Shown piece by piece: positions 39,840-49,196 of a stretch of DNA of 64,000 nt (its first letter is position 1; every line of letters starts with the position of its first letter). The notes under the pieces were generated by a model. That model saw nothing but the letters and a program-made list of their open reading frames with translations. It made no database searches and was not told the origin of the DNA. The position numbers and the translations under genes were made by a program. Source of the stretch: a bacterium (lineage in GTDB: Bacteria; Chloroflexota; Chloroflexia; Chloroflexales; Kallotenuaceae); assembly GCA_016781525.1 (NCBI GenBank), contig JADDQE010000040.1:53123-117122 (forward strand), read 5' to 3'.

Positions 39840-41936
39840 TTGAAGCATTCGGGATTAACGGGCCGCCAAGCGGCAAACGCTCGACTGTATCGTGTGGAAT
39901 CGGAGTCCGTAATGAACGACGAACATGTGTATCGGTATCCGCGCCGCATTACGTGGCCTATCGAGTTGATCGGCGGTTTGCTGGTGTTATGGAGCACGGT
40001 GCGTGTTGCGCGCGTTGCACTAGCGCTGCTGTGGAACACGTGGCCGCTGGAGCCGTTCATTTTGCATCGTGTTCCGGGCTTGGCTGAGCTTGTGAGCTGG
40101 GTTGCGCTAACAGGTCCTGATCAGTTGAACCTGCAAACATTCACGATGCCGCTGCTCTGGATGCTAGTCACGCTGTTTGTCGTGCTCATTTTGCGGAACA
40201 TGTTTCCGCCTGTGCGGTACAGCGCGCGTGGTTTGTTGGTCGGATTCGAGGGCGATTGGGTCCCCGTTCGCTGGGAAGGGCTACGGGCCCTGCGCGTGAC
40301 TGACACGCCCGACAACAAGCGCTTCGTCGTGCTGGCTCAAGCGGCCGGCCAGGATCTCACGTCATGGCATCGTATTTATGCCTTGCTGTATCACTTCCGC
40401 TTCCGGCGAGGCTTTCTGATCAGCTCAGCAATCCAAGATGGTGAAGGATTGCTGCGGGATATCATGAACGAAATTGACCGCCGTAGCCGCTTGGGCGAGA
40501 AGCTGAACATCGAGATGAGCGAAGGGCCGGCATCGCCATTGTTTGGCATGCTGCTCAACCTTCCAGGGCTTCTACGCGGTGCTCGTAACCAAAGTGAGGC
40601 TCCAGTCTTCCAGCCCGTTGCCACAGCGGCTACGATGGGGAGTGGAGCGGCGCTGACCATGCCAAGTATTGGTGGAGTAATCGCGTCTGCGCCCCAGGCA
40701 GCGCCTGCTCAGCCGCAAGTCGCTCCTGCACAACCACAGGCCCTCGCCCCGGCCGCCCAGCGGCAGCCTACCCTTGCCGCGGACGCGATCCAGGGCGGGT
40801 ATTCGCGTGGGATTCAAGGCGTATTGAACGTGCTGACGGTGCTTATACTTGGCTTTGCGCTGTGGCGATACCTAGCCGCGTGGTCCATGTTCCTGCTCTT
40901 TACCTTTCCAAGCCTGCGCGACACTGCAATTTTTCGCGGCGTAACCGTCGTTCCTCTGGTCTCGCATTGGGGGCTGCTGGTCGGCGCGCATGTCGCGCTC
41001 TTGTTGGTCGTAGCTATTGTGCTGATGCTGCGGCATCTTTTCCCGGCGGTAGCGCTCGACAGCAACGGGATCGTCTTCAGCGCGCTCGGCCGGTCGCATT
41101 GGCTCGCATGGGAGCACGTAAGCTTCGTCAAGGCGACCGACATTCGGGATGAGCAGCACGTTATTCTGGTCGAGGCCGAGGGACGCCATCTGCCCTGGTA
41201 CTATGTGATGGGCTCTTGGCTGTATGATGGCGGTAGCGGCCGTGGGGCCTTGATCTGGCCGATGCTGTCCCAGTTCGAGCCATTGATGCAGCGCATGGCG
41301 TTGGAGCTGACGCGGCGCCAGGCTCCTGACCAGCCGATGAAGCTACGTGACGACGCTCCCGGATGGCTACTGATGCTGGCCGTCCGTCCGGCTGAGGCGC
41401 TTGATCGGCTTGTGGGTGTGTACGAGCGCGAGCGCGATCTGCCGCAGGATTTGGAGCTTCCCGCTGTGCTGCGGGCTGGCCTGCAGATGCTCTGGGTCAC
41501 TGCGGCGCCTGCTATTCTGTTGCTACTGTACTGGATGATGTATAAGGGCCAGCTTCTGGTGCTGCAAGTGCCGCTGATGCTGATTCTGGCAATCATCTGG
41601 GGTATTACTGAGTGGCCGCTCGCGTCGTTTCTGTCCTCGTCGATCGATCAGATTGTCGGGGTGGGCAACAAAGGGTACCAGGGCCTCTACCTGTACCCAA
41701 CTGCCCAGCTGCCGCGAGTTCTGCCGCTAGTTCTCGCCGTGCTGCTTACGCTGATGGGCTTTCCAACGTTGGCAATGATCGCCTGGGGCGCTGGGATTGC
41801 TTGGAGTGGGCTGCTCACGGCGGGTCTATGGGAAGCGCTCTATGGCTGGCGCGGGCCAGTCCTGCTCGCCGGCAGCATCATGACAGTGTTCTTCCAAATT
41901 CTAACTCTGATTGGGGTGCTGGTACTGCGGGGCTAG
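39840..41936 (+). CDS. Uncharacterised 698-aa membrane protein with two repeated TM + PH-like modules and a C-terminal polytopic domain
   Basis: Internal repeat: MLVTLFVVLILRNMFPPVRYSARGLLVGFEGDWVPVRWEGLRALRVTD versus LLLVVAIVLMLRHLFPAVALDSNGIVFSALGRSHWLAWEHVSFVKATD. Start may be 39912 (MNDEHVYRYPRR). Confidence 0.8.
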   Translation: MKHSGLTGRQAANARLYRVESESVMNDEHVYRYPRRITWPIELIGGLLVLWSTVRVARVALALLWNTWPLEPFILHRVPGLAELVSWVALTGPDQLNLQTFTMPLLWMLVTLFVVLILRNMFPPVRYSARGLLVGFEGDWVPVRWEGLRALRVTDTPDNKRFVVLAQAAGQDLTSWHRIYALLYHFRFRRGFLISSAIQDGEGLLRDIMNEIDRRSRLGEKLNIEMSEGPASPLFGMLLNLPGLLRGARNQSEAPVFQPVATAATMGSGAALTMPSIGGVIASAPQAAPAQPQVAPAQPQALAPAAQRQPTLAADAIQGGYSRGIQGVLNVLTVLILGFALWRYLAAWSMFLLFTFPSLRDTAIFRGVTVVPLVSHWGLLVGAHVALLLVVAIVLMLRHLFPAVALDSNGIVFSALGRSHWLAWEHVSFVKATDIRDEQHVILVEAEGRHLPWYYVMGSWLYDGGSGRGALIWPMLSQFEPLMQRMALELTRRQAPDQPMKLRDDAPGWLLMLAVRPAEALDRLVGVYERERDLPQDLELPAVLRAGLQMLWVTAAPAILLLLYWMMYKGQLLVLQVPLMLILAIIWGITEWPLASFLSSSIDQIVGVGNKGYQGLYLYPTAQLPRVLPLVLAVLLTLMGFPTLAMIAWGAGIAWSGLLTAGLWEALYGWRGPVLLAGSIMTVFFQILTLIGVLVLRG

Positions 41937-41998: not shown

Positions 41999-42820
41999 TT
42001 AGTAACCCATCCACAGTCGGCCCGCGAGGGCAATAACGGAGAGCGGCAAGACGACGAGCCAACAGTAGCGCAGTGCATGTTGGATTGTTCGATGCACTGC
42101 TGCGTCGCGGAGGCCGCGGCCTACAAGCGCCACGGCTAGCGCTAGCCACAGCTTGAGACTAAGCTGCTGCCACCATGGCAGTGTTGGCGCTGTAACAAAT
42201 ACGCTCGCGATCAACGTGATCAACAGCACGCTGCGGAGGTTGTGCGCCCAGCGCGCTATGCCGACATCCTCTGGCCGAAGGTGGGCATCCGCATCACCTA
42301 AGCCCAGACCACTTTCTCCACCAAACGGTTGCCAGCGGGCCGCAGCTGGCAGGGCCAGAAGCGCCGCGAACGCCCCGAGTAGGAGCGGACCAAGCTCTGT
42401 AAGTGTTGCGCCCTGCCACCCAAAGCCTACGAGCAGCGCAATCCAGAGTACCGCGCGGCCGCTTACGCCAATTTGGGCTTCCCGCACAGCAGCTCGGCTT
42501 GCCGCGGGTAGTGACGAGAGTAGGCCTGGCGCAAGCGCTACCAGGAAGCTCGCTTCCGTGAAGGCCCAGATACGCCACAGGTCGAGCTGCGGTATAGGAG
42601 CAAACGGACTCGCTGGCCAGGGAAGCAGCCCTATGGCGATCAGGCTGAGCACGACCGAGAGCGCGTGCGGCAGCGATCCCTGTCCACGTAATGCGCGCCA
42701 AGTGTTGCGGATTGCCTGCGAACCGCGTGCTGAACGCCCAAGCGCCGCGATTAAAATCAGCGCCAGGGTGATTACCCACAGGAGCCCTGGATACACTAGT
42801 ATTTGAAACAACGTTTCCAT
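41999..42820 (-). CDS. NuoH/HycD-like membrane subunit of a group-4-hydrogenase-related complex
   Basis: Polytopic; LDLWRIWAFTEASFLVALAPGLLSSLPAASRAAVREAQIGVSGRAVLWIALLVGF; position in the operon. Confidence 0.65.
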   Translation of the reverse strand: METLFQILVYPGLLWVITLALILIAALGRSARGSQAIRNTWRALRGQGSLPHALSVVLSLIAIGLLPWPASPFAPIPQLDLWRIWAFTEASFLVALAPGLLSSLPAASRAAVREAQIGVSGRAVLWIALLVGFGWQGATLTELGPLLLGAFAALLALPAAARWQPFGGESGLGLGDADAHLRPEDVGIARWAHNLRSVLLITLIASVFVTAPTLPWWQQLSLKLWLALAVALVGRGLRDAAVHRTIQHALRYCWLVVLPLSVIALAGRLWMGY

Positions 42821-42860
42821 AAGTCCTGACCATTTACCCGCAGTAGCGGTCACTCCGCAG

Positions 42861-43259
42861 CTACGCCTCGATAATACGTGGCTGGCGCGCAGCTTCCATG
42901 AGGGCTTCGGCCACGATGTCGGTCAGCGGTGGACAGCCGTCGACTTTCCGCCGAGCCTCAATATCCGGCAGCGCTGCGATACCCCCTTTGCCGAATGGAT
43001 AGCCGTCGATGGCGCACCGGCCAATGACGACGACCGGCAGCCGGCCTTGAAGCATGGTGGTGTAGGTTGTCATCAGCGCAGATCGGCTGGTCGCAGGAAT
43101 GCTGCCAGTAAGCGCGATAACGTCCGCGACCTGTGGTGTTGGCGCCCATGTTAGCTCCGGGGTCCCTTCAACCGCAGCCCATACCTCGGCCGCACATGCA
43201 CCGCAATCGCCAGCGCAAAGGTGAAATACTTTATAAGCTCGTGGCACGTCGCCCTCCAT
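42861..43259 (-). CDS. NuoB/HycG-like small subunit ([4Fe-4S] N2-type)
   Basis: FHLCAGDCGACAAEVWAAVEG, ADVIALTGSIPATSR, VVVIGRCAIDGYPFGKGG, KVDGCPPLTDIVAEAL; Cys pattern of a complex-I/hydrogenase small subunit. Confidence 0.8.
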   Translation of the reverse strand: MEGDVPRAYKVFHLCAGDCGACAAEVWAAVEGTPELTWAPTPQVADVIALTGSIPATSRSALMTTYTTMLQGRLPVVVIGRCAIDGYPFGKGGIAALPDIEARRKVDGCPPLTDIVAEALMEAARQPRIIEA

Positions 43260-43347
43260 TTCTAGCTGTCGGGCAAAAACCCGCAGCGCGTGATCTTGTT
43301 CCTATCTTGTTTTCCACGTCTCCCTCTGCGCGTACGCCACGTAAGTG

Positions 43348-44787
43348 TCAGCGGCTCAAAAATGGGAGACCGCGCATTGCCTCGTCGATCAGGGTAATGA
43401 CCGGCTGCGGCCACACGCCAACTACGATGCTTAGTATCGCCAGCAGCACAATGACGACCAGCACAGCCCTTGGCGCGTAAGGTACTGCGACTACCGCGAG
43501 GCGATCGAGGTCATCTGAGAAAAGACTCCGGGTTGTCGGGGCTTCGGACGGCCGCAAGAGGGCCTGGCTGAGCAAGCGTGCACCGGCAACACCGTTAAGC
43601 ACCAAGGCACCACCTACGAGCAGCCCTACCACGCCGCTCTCCCCTGCGACCGCGCTGAATAACAGTAACTTTGGCAGGAAACCGCTGAAGGGCGGTACGC
43701 CGAGGAGCAGAAGCACGCCGAGCAGCAGTGCGAGCGCAGCCATTGGACGCTCGCGCATGGCGCCGGCCTGTTCACGACGACCGGGTACCGGTTGTTCTAG
43801 AAGGGCCAAACCTAGGGCGATGAGCGTCAGCCCTAGCACGTGGCTCAGCGCGCCGAGCAAGGCGGCCCCGACTCCCGCAGCGTTGGTCATCGCTAGACCC
43901 GTCGCGAGCAAGCCCATATTTGCGACCGCAAGATAACCAATTGCCCGGCGTGTATGGGCAGCTGCGAGGGCCAAAGCACCACCGCCAAGTGCCGAAAGGA
44001 AACCCAGACCAAGCATCAAGCGTTGCCCGCTGCTGTTTCCTACTAGCAGCTGCGGCTGTGTTTGTAACGCGACAAGCAACACGGGAAAGCTCAAGGCCGT
44101 AAGCAAGCCAAGCTGTACGAAAATGGTTGGCGGCGGAGCTTCGTCCAGCACATCTGGTAGCCATAGATGAAACGGGAGAAGGCCCACGCGAATGCAAAAG
44201 CCGATCAACAGCAGTGCAAATATGGTGTGCGTTAGAACGGGTCCCGTCGAGGCCAGCTGACCCGTAAAAGCAGTTGCCAGCACAAAGCCAATCAGCAGCA
44301 GCACGCCGCCAAGTGCCACCAGCAATGTGTATTTAAGCGCCATTCCGATCGTATGCGGTTGCATCAGGACGGGACTGTCGGCCGGCTGATCGACAAGCTG
44401 AAGGCCTCCGAGTAGACTTGCCAGAAATAAGAGTGATGCAACCACGAACGGCTCTTGCAGGATCAAGATCGCCGCGCTAAGCCCAAGAATGAGCAGCAGT
44501 GCCGCGACAAAGTACTCTCCCTCAGGCCGAACTGCTGCCAGGAGGGTCATTGCAAGACCGCCGATGCAAAAGGTCGTCAGGAAGAGCTGACTCAGCTCGT
44601 TGTAATTGACGCTCACGTCCAGCAGGCGCGCCGGCTGGTTGACCGGAGCGGTTAGGGCCAACCAGAGCTCGGCGGTAACAGCGCCGACACCAGCCCAGCC
44701 TGCGAGCGTGCTGTCGCGCCGGAGGATAAAGGCACCCGCCGCGGCGGCGAGCGGAAACAGAATCAAGAGCAAATAGATCATATTCAA
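43348..44787 (-). CDS. NuoN/HyfF-like proton-conducting-transporter-family membrane subunit
   Basis: Many TM helices; IRVGLLPFHLWLPDVLDEAPPPTIFVQLGLLTAL and PPFSGFLPKLLLFSAV. Confidence 0.82.
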   Translation of the reverse strand: MNMIYLLLILFPLAAAAGAFILRRDSTLAGWAGVGAVTAELWLALTAPVNQPARLLDVSVNYNELSQLFLTTFCIGGLAMTLLAAVRPEGEYFVAALLLILGLSAAILILQEPFVVASLLFLASLLGGLQLVDQPADSPVLMQPHTIGMALKYTLLVALGGVLLLIGFVLATAFTGQLASTGPVLTHTIFALLLIGFCIRVGLLPFHLWLPDVLDEAPPPTIFVQLGLLTALSFPVLLVALQTQPQLLVGNSSGQRLMLGLGFLSALGGGALALAAAHTRRAIGYLAVANMGLLATGLAMTNAAGVGAALLGALSHVLGLTLIALGLALLEQPVPGRREQAGAMRERPMAALALLLGVLLLLGVPPFSGFLPKLLLFSAVAGESGVVGLLVGGALVLNGVAGARLLSQALLRPSEAPTTRSLFSDDLDRLAVVAVPYAPRAVLVVIVLLAILSIVVGVWPQPVITLIDEAMRGLPFLSR

Positions 44788-44890
44788 TTCACCGTCGCCG
44801 GCCTGCCGGTCTCCACAAACAGGTGATGAGCTCCCCGCAGGGCAGTTTTGTCAGACCTAGCCGCGTGTAGGCAAGGGCGTGTGCGTGCGC

Positions 44891-45595
44891 TCATCGCCGC
44901 TCAAATAAGCTGCCAAGCTCCAGGCTGCGTAGTCGTCCATAAAGGAGACCACTCAGGTAGGCGACAATCACTGCTAGCGCCAAGCTGAGTACCTCGAGCA
45001 GCGCAATATGCAGTATATTGAGGCGTACTGCAACGCCAAAGTAGAGTAGCTTGGCACTTGCCGTCAGCAAAAGTAGGCCAAGGCCGAGCTTGAGCACGTT
45101 GCTGGCCATAATCAAGACAATCAGCCCAGACAAAAGTAAAAAAATCCAGCCGGCGTCGAGCACTTGCTGCCGTGCGACAGGATAAAAGGTCGAGAGCAAC
45201 CATGTCGCGAGGCCCGCTAACACCATTGCGCCAAAGGGCACTACGGTAGCCCCCCAGCGGCCGACTACATTCTCACGTTGGTGGTGTGCCTCGCGCTCGG
45301 CTCGCCGCAGTTCCATTTGCGCGAACTCGTCCAGCTCGGAGGAATGATAGTCACGGTTAAAGGTGAGCCCTGTAATCATTAAGATCACGGCACTGCCGAG
45401 AGCTGTCAAGATCTCCACGGCGAGTAATGTTACGCCCGCCGTTCCGCCGAAGAGGCTTGTAGCTTGCCATGCCAAGCCCACGCGGCACAGCTCGGCGCCG
45501 AGGAGGAGCGGAAGCGCCAGTCGCCAGTCGTCGATGACGACCATTGTCGCGGCCAAAAGGATTAATCCGATGAGGAAGACGAATGTAAGCCACAT
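44891..45595 (-). CDS. HyfE/NuoK-like membrane subunit with two similar halves
   Basis: DDWRLALPLLLGAELCRVGLAWQATSLFGGTAGVTLLAVEILTALGSAVILMITGLTF and VLKLGLGLLLLTASAKLLYFGVAVRLNILHIALLEVLSLALAVIVAYLSGLLYGR. Confidence 0.65.
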   Translation of the reverse strand: MWLTFVFLIGLILLAATMVVIDDWRLALPLLLGAELCRVGLAWQATSLFGGTAGVTLLAVEILTALGSAVILMITGLTFNRDYHSSELDEFAQMELRRAEREAHHQRENVVGRWGATVVPFGAMVLAGLATWLLSTFYPVARQQVLDAGWIFLLLSGLIVLIMASNVLKLGLGLLLLTASAKLLYFGVAVRLNILHIALLEVLSLALAVIVAYLSGLLYGRLRSLELGSLFERR

Positions 45596-45598
45596 AGG

Positions 45599-47341
45599 TT
45601 ATTGAGCTGCCAGCAGCAGGACACCAATCAGGCTAGTCACGACTACTGCCAGATAGTAGCGTCGTTCCAGCACCTGTAAGGGGACTGCCACACGCTCTCG
45701 CTGTCGGGCCAGCCACTGCCCAAGAGCTCGGCCTGGAGGCTCGTCGGGAATAACCAGCGGCGAAAGTGTGGCGCGCAGAGCGACGAAGGGTAACGCCCAA
45801 CCCGGCTCCTCGTCAAGCGGCTCGCCGCCCGCGAACTGGACCGGCGGTCGGGGATGGCGCAGGGCTCGATTGGCGATTCCGAAAAGCACCAGAATGAAGA
45901 AGGTTGTCATGCCGGTCGAGATGAGGGTAGCTGGTGATGGCAGCTGTAGCTCGGGCGTCGCCGGATCACCCAACACCCACTGCCAAATCTGGTCGGGGAT
46001 GAGCCCGCCAAGCAGCAAGCCCAGCATGAGCAGCAGCGGCCAGCCACCGCCACGTTGCTCGAGCGCTCCAATCGGTGAGCGAAACGCAGGCCGGCGAAAA
46101 AAGGCGGCGAGCGTTGGCAGGTAGCTGAGGGCGAGAAGGGTGGAGGCTGCAAGCAATACGGGCGTCAGCCAAGGCTGCGCTGGTGCGAGCAATACTACAA
46201 CTCGCCGCAAGGCGTACCCAAGGAGCGGGGGCAATCCGGCGCACGACATAGCTGCAATTCCATAGGCCAGGCCGGCGCGACGTAGGGGCTCGGGCAGCGG
46301 CGGGAGTGCGGCGATCAGCTCGGTCCGTGTGGCGCGCTCGAGCTGCCCTAGCGCCAGGGCGAGGCTCGTGCCAGTGACAGCGGTATGCACCAGGAGACCA
46401 GTAGCAATCGGACCCGCGGCGGGATGACCCGTGCCGAAGGAGACCGCCAGCAGCGACAGCTGAGCCAAAAGTTGCCAGCTAAATGCGTCGAGTAGTCGTC
46501 GTGCTGTGAGCGCGTTGACTGCTCCGAGAATCAGCCCTAGCACGCCAAGCAAAAGGACGCTTCCAGTCAGCTGCTGGGACCAGAGCGCGGCTGTGGCGAT
46601 GCCATAGCGGACTAGCAGATAGCCGCCCAAGAGTGGCAAGCCGAGCGCCAGCGTTGGTGCACGGACTAGGATTGGCGAAGTGGTCGTCGTGCTGAAGCGT
46701 GGAGCTAGCCCGATCAAAATGCCACAGCCAGCCAGCCACGGGCCACCCAGCACGCTTCCGCCTGCCAACGTCGGTGTGGCTGCATACGCCAGCATTGCAA
46801 CGGCCAGCAGCAGAACTGGTAGGCCGCCAAACGACGCATTGTGGTTATGAGCGGTAGCGCTCTGTTGCATCACGGTGCTGCCGAGCCACGTAATGCCTAG
46901 GCCAGCAATTGCACCAATCGGAGTGACACTATAGGCTGTTATGAGCCCACCTAGCAGCAAGATCAGCAGCCCGGCGAAGACCAACCCGAGCACCCGAGTT
47001 GTGCGCCCAAAGGTGGACGCTAAGCCGCCTGCTGTAATGGCGCCACTGCTGAGCAGGAGAAGAGCAAAGAAACTTGCAGGCTCACTGGTATCAAAGCGCA
47101 GCATGAGCGGCACACCGTTGAGCGTGCCCCACGGCAGTGTCGTCTGCTGGCTGCCAATCCACAATGGTTGGCTCGCTACGAGGCCAATAAGTGCCAAGAT
47201 GACGCCAAGTGTGGTCAGGCCGAGATAGTAGGCACGAACTCGCCCGCTCATGATCCAGATAAAGAGCGCGGCTATGATCAGGATTGCAAGTGGGCTAAGC
47301 GTAAGCAGTGCCACAGCTAATCCTCGGCGCAAGTCATGCAT
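45599..47341 (-). CDS. NuoL/HyfB-like divergent proton-conducting-transporter-family subunit
   Basis: 580 aa with many TM helices; LMLRFDTSEPASFFALLLLSSGAITAGGLAS (NuoL-like N-terminus), GLPPLLGYALRRVVVLL; true start may lie downstream of the nuoD-like overlap. Confidence 0.7.
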   Translation of the reverse strand: MHDLRRGLAVALLTLSPLAILIIAALFIWIMSGRVRAYYLGLTTLGVILALIGLVASQPLWIGSQQTTLPWGTLNGVPLMLRFDTSEPASFFALLLLSSGAITAGGLASTFGRTTRVLGLVFAGLLILLLGGLITAYSVTPIGAIAGLGITWLGSTVMQQSATAHNHNASFGGLPVLLLAVAMLAYAATPTLAGGSVLGGPWLAGCGILIGLAPRFSTTTTSPILVRAPTLALGLPLLGGYLLVRYGIATAALWSQQLTGSVLLLGVLGLILGAVNALTARRLLDAFSWQLLAQLSLLAVSFGTGHPAAGPIATGLLVHTAVTGTSLALALGQLERATRTELIAALPPLPEPLRRAGLAYGIAAMSCAGLPPLLGYALRRVVVLLAPAQPWLTPVLLAASTLLALSYLPTLAAFFRRPAFRSPIGALEQRGGGWPLLLMLGLLLGGLIPDQIWQWVLGDPATPELQLPSPATLISTGMTTFFILVLFGIANRALRHPRPPVQFAGGEPLDEEPGWALPFVALRATLSPLVIPDEPPGRALGQWLARQRERVAVPLQVLERRYYLAVVVTSLIGVLLLAAQ

Positions 47342-48393
47342 GCGCCGATTGAGGCTACAATCACCGCGGCGTTTTCGACGAGCTGGTTGGCGAGCAACGC
47401 TCGGAGCACGAGACGCTGAGGCGGCCCCACAGCCTCGATGTTGATCGTTGTGAGACGAGTGCCATCACTTGTCAGGGTATAGCGTAGCGGTCCTGCCGGG
47501 GCCTCAACCATGGTCGTAATCGTTCCCCGGGGCAGTGCTTCCACGGTCGTACTCTGCCACGCCCCGACCGGCAGATCGTCGAGCAGGCGCCGGACGAGCT
47601 GGAGGCTGTCGTAGGCCTCGAGAAGCAAGAGCATGATGCGAGCGTAGGTGTCACCGCCGGTCTGGGTCACCTGCGCTGGCTTGATTTCGCCGTAAGCAGC
47701 GTAGGGTGCGTCGGCCCGAAGATCGCGTTGAATACCCGCTGCTCGGCCCAATGGCCCGGTAACACCCAGACTCTCAGCAGCTGGTTGGAGGAGAGCGCCG
47801 ATGCCGATGACGCGACGAGTAAAGGCCCGTCGCTCGATTGTCCGGTCGATCAAACGGTAGAGCACCTCGGAGGGGCGCTTGATCAGCCGTTGAATCGCCG
47901 CACGCTCCTCGTCGGTTAAGTCGACCTGAACGCCGGCTGGTCGTACAAAATCGACGACGAGGCGGTGCCCAGTCAGATGCTGCATTGCCGCGAGGACCCA
48001 TTCCCGGAGCGCGACGAGCTGACGCTGCACTTGCCCAAGGCCGAGCAGCTCGAAAACAATTGCCGTCGTATGGAGGTGGGAGGCGGCGCGCTCAAGCTCG
48101 GCTGCGGCCGTACGCAGCACCTGAGCTCGCGGCGGTACGGAGAGCCCGGCAAGCGCTTCTAATGCCATCGTCCAGGCGAGCGCATGATGATGGGAGTGAA
48201 CGCCGCAGATCCGGTTGACCAGGGTGTAGCTGCGCACAAGATCACCCCGTCGGATACGCTCCGCAACATTCCGAGCGCTATAGCCATCACGGTGCTCAAT
48301 ATCCTGAATGGTCTCGCCCTCAACGCGCAGCACGATCCGCTGGGGCGTCCGTAGAGCTGGATGGAATGGGCCAAGTGGGAGCAGATAGCTCAA
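47317..48393 (-). CDS. NuoD/HycE-like large (catalytic-type) subunit with altered NiFe-site motif
   Basis: LPLGPFHPALRTPQRIVLRVEGETI ... GYSARNVAERI ... NRICGVHSHHHALAWTMALEALAGLSVPPRAQVLRTAAAELERAASHL ... SIGACMTCAED; TTG start. Confidence 0.88.
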   Translation of the reverse strand: MSYLLPLGPFHPALRTPQRIVLRVEGETIQDIEHRDGYSARNVAERIRRGDLVRSYTLVNRICGVHSHHHALAWTMALEALAGLSVPPRAQVLRTAAAELERAASHLHTTAIVFELLGLGQVQRQLVALREWVLAAMQHLTGHRLVVDFVRPAGVQVDLTDEERAAIQRLIKRPSEVLYRLIDRTIERRAFTRRVIGIGALLQPAAESLGVTGPLGRAAGIQRDLRADAPYAAYGEIKPAQVTQTGGDTYARIMLLLLEAYDSLQLVRRLLDDLPVGAWQSTTVEALPRGTITTMVEAPAGPLRYTLTSDGTRLTTINIEAVGPPQRLVLRALLANQLVENAAVIVASIGACMTCAED

Positions 48394-48462: not shown

Positions 48463-49196
48463 TTACATATGATAGGGTTGCTCTGCATGTATTCCCGCCT
48501 CCACGGCCGGTTGACCACGATTGCCTGCTGGAGCGCCGTCTACACCCTGGGTCCTGACGCTTCCTCGACGCTTAAGCTCCGCTAGTGTCCGTTGATGCTG
48601 CTCGCGTGTTATCGGAAAGAAATATACCAGGACCACACCGGCGATCAAGAACAGCGCAGGGAGCGGCCCGATCAGAATCCGAATCGCGAGGAGCGCAGTC
48701 GCGGGCTGGCTGACGAGGTCAGCTGCTCCAGCTGCCGGTGCAACATACCCGGCGAGCGCTAGGGTCTGCCCAATTGCAAAAAGGCCGAGGGCTAGCCCAA
48801 TCTTTTGCAGCAGCACGGACAAAGCCGTAGTACACCCCCTCGCGGCGCTGCCCGGTTTCTAGCTCGTCCAGCTCGATGACATCCGGCAACATCGCCCATG
48901 GAACTAAGTACGCCGTTGCAACGCCGATGCCTGCGAGTACGCCAAGCACGATAACCGCCCAGCTTGGCCAGGTAGGCTGGACCGCGAATAGCCCCAGCAG
49001 CACAACAATCCAGATGGCCATTCCACGGTAATAGACGCCCTTCTTACCAACTGAACGGCTTACCCTACTCCAGATCATAAGCCATACGAGTGCCGCTGAT
49101 GATGGTGACAATCGCAGGTCCAACATCACCTTCGCCAAACGCAAGCTTCGTGACGAGCGGAACCTTTTCCGACGCAGGATCGGCGGTCGGCTGCAT
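48463..49196 (-). pseudogene. Decayed MFS (GPH/MFS_2-like) transporter
   Basis: N-terminal fragment MQPTADPASEKVPLVTKLAFGEGDVGPAIVTIISG; then, after an apparent internal deletion and frame change, SRSVGKKGVYYRGMAIWIVVLLGLFAVQPTWPSWAVIVLGVLAGIGVATAYLVPWAMLPDVIELDELETGQRREGVYYGF; then a second frameshift to VLLQKIGLALGLFAIGQTLALAGYV. Confidence 0.8.

Follow-up and report, generated by a model that had tools for sequence, protein, structure and literature searches.

A complex I-related membrane operon of a Chloroflexota order, possibly converted into a non-pumping partner of an ABC transporter

Members of the complex I superfamily are defined, in the usual view, by redox chemistry and ion pumping. 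What could such a complex do for its host if both had become dispensable? The question is raised by a six-gene operon on the minus strand, at positions 41999-48393, of a 64,000-nucleotide stretch (hereafter the window) of contig JADDQE010000040.1 (assembly GCA_016781525.1; Kallotenuaceae, Chloroflexota). Its six open reading frames (ORFs), in the order LS-L-K-N-SS-H, encode a large subunit (LS), a small subunit (SS), two antiporter-like subunits (L and N), a small membrane protein (K) and a short NuoH-like subunit (H). A preliminary description of the locus had read it as a highly divergent, reduced or repurposed relative of complex I and the group-4 [NiFe] hydrogenases, with an unknown electron donor and acceptor. 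With a probability of about one half, we propose that a complex resembling the energy-converting hydrogenase-related (Ehr) type has become a membrane module that no longer pumps, can dispense with redox chemistry and works with an ATP-binding cassette (ABC) transporter.

Metal sites, missing partners and pump residues

Search, tree and fold all make the LS a homologue of group-4 [NiFe] large subunits. Its AlphaFold model (pLDDT, the predicted local distance difference test, 89.9) gives a TM-score of 0.95 to the large subunit of E. coli formate hydrogenlyase (FHL; 7z0s_E), and the best PDB matches of the fold are the FHL and membrane-bound hydrogenase (Mbh) large subunits. The NiFe-ligand positions of the window LS are C63-H66 (RICGVH) and C352-C355 (CMTC, right at the C-terminal end); the second N-terminal cysteine is thus replaced by histidine, a pattern (CHCC) shared with the window's family, f1, while family f3 has CDCC. 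CCCC is found in 20 of 39 LS proteins of the order, and the other 19 deviate (ten other patterns). At 47317-47341, the beginning of the L gene and the codons for the C-terminal CxxC share the same DNA, from which these cysteines are read. It was considered whether the four NiFe cysteines track the Hyp maturation genes, and this was rejected: HypD is present in 15/20 genomes with CCCC versus 12/19 without (Fisher p=0.50), and CCCC proteins also occur where HypD was not found (g34, G070, G057 and G061). No hyp gene lies next to the operon. Searched for genome-wide, HypD is present elsewhere in the window genome (C39, with a separate [NiFe] hydrogenase on C31), and it was not found in G002, G003, G005, the f3 genera g23-g25 and the f4 genus g34, all of which carry the LS. 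The complex proposed here would no longer be a hydrogenase.

The preliminary description had also noted that no ferredoxin subunit, 30-kDa subunit or NADH module is adjacent, and this holds beyond the neighbourhood. Two complex I nuoD genes, two NuoC (30-kDa) and two NuoI are found in the window genome, on the same two contigs (C229 and C158), every NuoC and NuoI lying beside a complex I nuoD; since the counts equal the complex I copies, none is left over for the operon. In the seven genomes searched, every NuoI and NuoC belongs to one of the two complex I sets. The NuoI model detected no ferredoxin subunit beyond the complex I copies, a diverged ferredoxin-type subunit outside this model not having been sought. 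Within the operon, no counterpart of NuoC, I, E, F, G, A or J was recognised.

At the iron-sulfur site, most relatives that keep the SS gene have four cysteines. All four are lost in G047, G048 and G055, no cluster ligand being left in the SS of the Herpetosiphon-like family, and one is lost in G002 (GFPP). The gene itself is absent from three single-contig Chloroflexus-like genomes, in which N adjoins H, and, separately, from L058 (G056). A whole-genome SS search in the Chloroflexus-like complete genomes returned only two NuoB-level matches; the Chloroflexus genome paper, in the part available, describes only two complex I clusters (PMC3150298). In L083, from another family of the class, the SS is present without cluster cysteines. 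In the Herpetosiphon-like genus g23, the SS lacking these cysteines has a nonsynonymous-to-synonymous rate ratio (dN/dS, omega) of 0.02-0.04 wherever dN>0, which argues against decay. The reverse of the Herpetosiphon-like state was met in G027, whose LS (L045:10273-11388) has lost all four NiFe-ligand cysteines (SADD) and whose SS keeps four. One stop, which may be the terminal one, was reported within each of two matched SS frames, G044:C110:24000-24356 (in L052) and G077:C27:18231-18593.

Mrp antiporters and complex I are described as strictly conserving a Lys/Glu pair that is central to their mechanism (PMC9568556). In an alignment of the antiporter-like subunits with E. coli NuoL/M/N, HyfB/D/F and rhizobial Ehr proteins, the pair was lost order-wide from both (0/71), whereas it is kept in 8/8 references and in the group-4 or complex I subunits of other Chloroflexota (Glu 28/29, Lys 29/29). 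In N, the Glu of transmembrane helix 5 (TM5) and the Lys of TM7 are each found in 0/34, with Arg in place of the latter in 32/34 (R200 in the window); in L, neither occurs in any of 37 proteins, the window having Gly and Leu. An earlier alignment gave 0/32 for the TM5 Glu of N and agreed on the window L, with two Glu among the L proteins, one of them in the sister locus L083. N mostly carries Lys or Arg at TM12, and a Lys aligns with NuoN K158 in 27/32. When H is compared with NuoH, E157 corresponds to Arg (25/25) and E228 to Gly (21/25), while neither E220 nor the D63-K70 stretch has an aligned counterpart; by this alignment, the acidic residues of the NuoH channel are lost in the H family.

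Order-wide conservation and the neighbouring ABC transporter

At a cut-off of E<=1e-70, the LS has homologues in 76 of the 158 class genomes, almost all of which belong to the window's order. This order appears to be Chloroflexales and to include the model phototrophs Chloroflexus and Roseiflexus and the gliding predator Herpetosiphon. Among named genomes, an LS scan gave two loci, both in metagenome-assembled genomes, one of them a Herpetosiphonaceae bacterium. The LS proteins of the order form one clade (support 99/97); L067, L083 and next L091/L096 from other Chloroflexota branch off as its successive sister lineages. HyfG, Ech, NuoD (its own clade, 100/100) and two rhizobial-type Ehr proteins lie outside; the latter, from Rhizobium and Azospirillum and the only Ehr sequences sampled, branch with HyfG. 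The LS thus does not cluster inside a characterised group, the outcome that would have spoken for a canonical Hyf, Ehr or complex I.

The gene order is the same in four of the five other genomes of the window's family. Within g23, dN/dS is at most 0.05 for all six genes, the cysteine-free SS included; within the Chloroflexus-like genus g6 it is about 0.05-0.22 where dS is measurable, the LS, at about 0.08-0.16, being under purifying selection. These low values indicate that the operon genes are maintained. L091:5114-10469 and L096:2462-7210 are smaller related systems, each with an LS, an SS, an H-like gene and, where L would be, a single large membrane protein; the former has a metallo-beta-lactamase-like ORF (named from reading) inside it, and the SS of the latter lacks the last cluster cysteine.

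Inspection of the neighbourhood across genomes, as had been suggested for the locus, showed that the operon recurs throughout the order and that an ABC pair is usually next to it. In most genera H is followed by this pair, which consists of a GldA/DrrA-like ATPase and a permease of 250 aa. The ATPase gene comes immediately after H in 34 of the 40 loci that have data; it does not do so in four loci from the window's family, where the pair is elsewhere, or in two g34 loci, where the permease is ~1 kb downstream. The permease family is present in 78/82 genomes of the order, nearly always with one match, and belongs to no Pfam or NCBIfam family. The best-scoring models for the ATPase are DrrA and GldA, both below their curated cut-offs. 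The operon of the Herpetosiphon-like genomes is split, and its second locus reads SS-H-ATPase-permease; that SS and H had been lost from these genomes was rejected accordingly. At three f3 loci from which SS-H moved away, a ligT/2'-5' RNA ligase-like ORF (named from reading) follows N (L055:4608-5201, L056:14363-14956 and L057:14132-14743). Chloroflexales glide (PMC7332563), and the GldA-like ATPase, below cut-off as it is, offers a weak lead to gliding motility that we do not claim.

Possible function of the complex

Since cluster ligands or the whole SS are lost in several branches and the rest is under purifying selection, electron transfer would not be the conserved function. To speak of an electron donor and acceptor presumes a transfer for which several lineages, with cluster ligands or SS gone, have no known route. 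The other half of the preliminary description, a reduced or repurposed superfamily member, is right and too mild, given the NiFe, Fe-S and pump losses and the ABC linkage. Judged from sequence, redox chemistry is very probably dispensable in the order and canonical pumping has probably been lost; a partnership with the ABC transporter, meaning physical and functional coupling, is slightly favoured. The conserved role would most likely be structural or regulatory. If the six products assemble, LS, with or without SS, would form a cytoplasmic platform on an L-K-N-H membrane arm, and the whole would work with the ABC transporter, with ATP as the energy source. That a complex I-derived membrane complex serves an ATP-driven ABC transporter throughout the order, free of redox chemistry and canonical pumping, is advanced only tentatively.

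Several observations weigh against this proposal. The ABC pair is unlinked in the window's own family (G000:C228:36270-38122 in the window genome). The residue losses of L come from alignments of a very divergent protein, those of N being more robust, and the TM5 state of N in L083 shifts between the two alignments (A in the earlier, E in the later). The window SS keeps four cluster ligands (C19-x2-C22, C82 and C109) and could still bind a cluster, so dispensability is claimed for the family and not redox silence for the window complex. Genomes without SS could borrow NuoB from complex I. Some relatives, e.g. the Roseiflexus-like G064, retain CCCC, the SS cysteines and HypD, and redox activity is conceivable in them. 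Could the complex then be a redox-active Ehr after all, whose single SS [4Fe-4S] cluster accepts electrons from some soluble donor to power a non-canonical ion path, the Herpetosiphon- and Chloroflexus-like losses being lineage-specific decay? The SS cysteines of the window and of most gene-keeping relatives, the many CCCC proteins and the general supposition that ion transport by Ehr complexes is coupled to a redox reaction (PMC6349859) suit this explanation. It is nevertheless unlikely, though it deserves to be taken seriously: pump residues are gone throughout the order, the SS in the Herpetosiphon-like genus, cysteine-free as it is, is too constrained for decay, and the seven genomes searched have no spare NuoI or NuoC.

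A redox-independent, Mrp-like proton or sodium channel or antiporter would account for the substituted charges of N, namely Arg at TM7, Lys or Arg at TM12 and Lys at the K158 position. We consider it improbable, as it would have to operate without a pair that Mrp strictly conserves and with an L that has lost nearly all of its residue set. A genuine group-4 [NiFe] hydrogenase, to which the fold, its FHL and Mbh matches and the four cysteines in half of the order point, is hardly credible in view of the histidine ligand in the window, the LS-bearing relatives in which HypD was not found, the lack of association between the cysteines and HypD, and the absence of a spare ferredoxin subunit by the NuoI model. 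If the redox-dispensable, non-pumping module is the correct explanation, the architecture of complex I would be reusable for something else, and the cluster-less and SS-less complexes would be natural mutants in which to study the role of the scaffold by itself. This is testable in cultured organisms, provided that the species assignments are right.

Gene identities, flanking genes and relation to known systems

The six-gene reading of the preliminary description stands for the ORFs, strand, coordinates and the types of LS, L, N, SS and H (Table 1), and the divergence it stressed is evident. Pfam matches were obtained for LS (PF00346, E=1.8e-37; PF00374, 5.4e-6), N (PF00361, 2.1e-22) and SS (PF01058, 4.5e-7), and none for L, K and H. 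L has weak NCBIfam antiporter matches only (best 6.6e-8), and its family profile aligns with NuoL/HyfB-type proteins at an hhalign E of 1.1e-20; for the H family profile against NuoH, the probability is 80.6 and E is 1.3e-5. The HyfE call for K did not hold up. Pfam, hhalign (E 0.38, against only two HyfE sequences) and Foldseek (no PDB match with E<0.001 for its predicted helical membrane fold, pLDDT 85) all came out not positive; homology to HyfE is unproven, and the NuoK/HyfE-like label therefore rests on position and topology.

Table 1. Genes of the operon and the adjacent remnant, in window coordinates
Feature	Position	Strand	Basis
LS, NuoD/HycE-like large subunit, 358 aa, TTG start	47317..48393	-	Pfam, AlphaFold
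L, NuoL/HyfB-like antiporter-type subunit, 580 aa	45599..47341	-	NCBIfam (weak), hhalign
K, helical membrane protein in NuoK/HyfE place, 234 aa	44891..45595	-	position, topology
N, NuoN/HyfF-like antiporter-type subunit, 479 aa	43348..44787	-	Pfam
SS, NuoB-like small subunit, 132 aa	42861..43259	-	Pfam
H, short NuoH-like subunit, 284 aa	41999..42853	-	hhalign family profile
MFS-type remnant, two ORF pieces, outside the system	48463..49144	-	match to relative G005 ORF

The flanking MFS pseudogene noted earlier is plausible: both pieces in the window match a single intact ORF, about 480 aa long, of the relative G005. On the other side, a 698-aa membrane protein (39840-41936) is convergent to the operon and is kept with xseA/xseB-like genes in 3/4 family relatives examined.

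Our literature search found no paper on this gene cluster. With the group-4 [NiFe] hydrogenases (Mbh, FHL/Hyf and Ech) the operon shares the LS fold and, in the window, an SS with CxxC...C...CP; it differs from them in the histidine ligand, the relatives in which HypD was not found, the absence of a ferredoxin subunit and the lost pump residues. Homologues of NuoD, B, H, L and N link it to complex I, yet its LS falls outside the NuoD clade and no NADH-input or further peripheral-arm subunit was recognised in the operon. The Lys/Glu pair of MrpA/MrpD is absent from its subunits, and the companion ATPase is closest to, without reaching the cut-offs of, the GldA/DrrA-type ABC ATPases. The nearest counterpart in composition is the Ehr cluster on plasmid pCB3090_3 of Rhizobium sp. 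CB3090 (L104), which likewise combines LS and SS with a NuoH-like subunit, a pair of antiporter-like subunits and one further small membrane protein, and lacks a ferredoxin subunit. Its NiFe cysteines are altered, as is one of those of the window LS; 20 of the 39 LS proteins of the order keep CCCC. The six-gene composition is thus not new in itself. However, the rhizobial LS is longer (505 aa versus 358 aa) and belongs to a separate clade, the order LS-L-K-N-SS-H sets the operon apart, its third small protein has an unproven HyfE identity, and the rhizobial antiporter subunits keep the Glu/Lys pair that those of the operon do not. By descent of its LS the complex is, on sequence grounds, Ehr-like, the grouping with known Ehr having been compared against two sequences only, and its antiporter-like subunits depart from Ehr (0/34 and 0/37). 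Loss of the pump residues, loss of the Fe-S subunit and linkage to an ABC pair have, as far as we know, no precedent among the Ehr complexes described so far (PMC6349859, PMC10284858).

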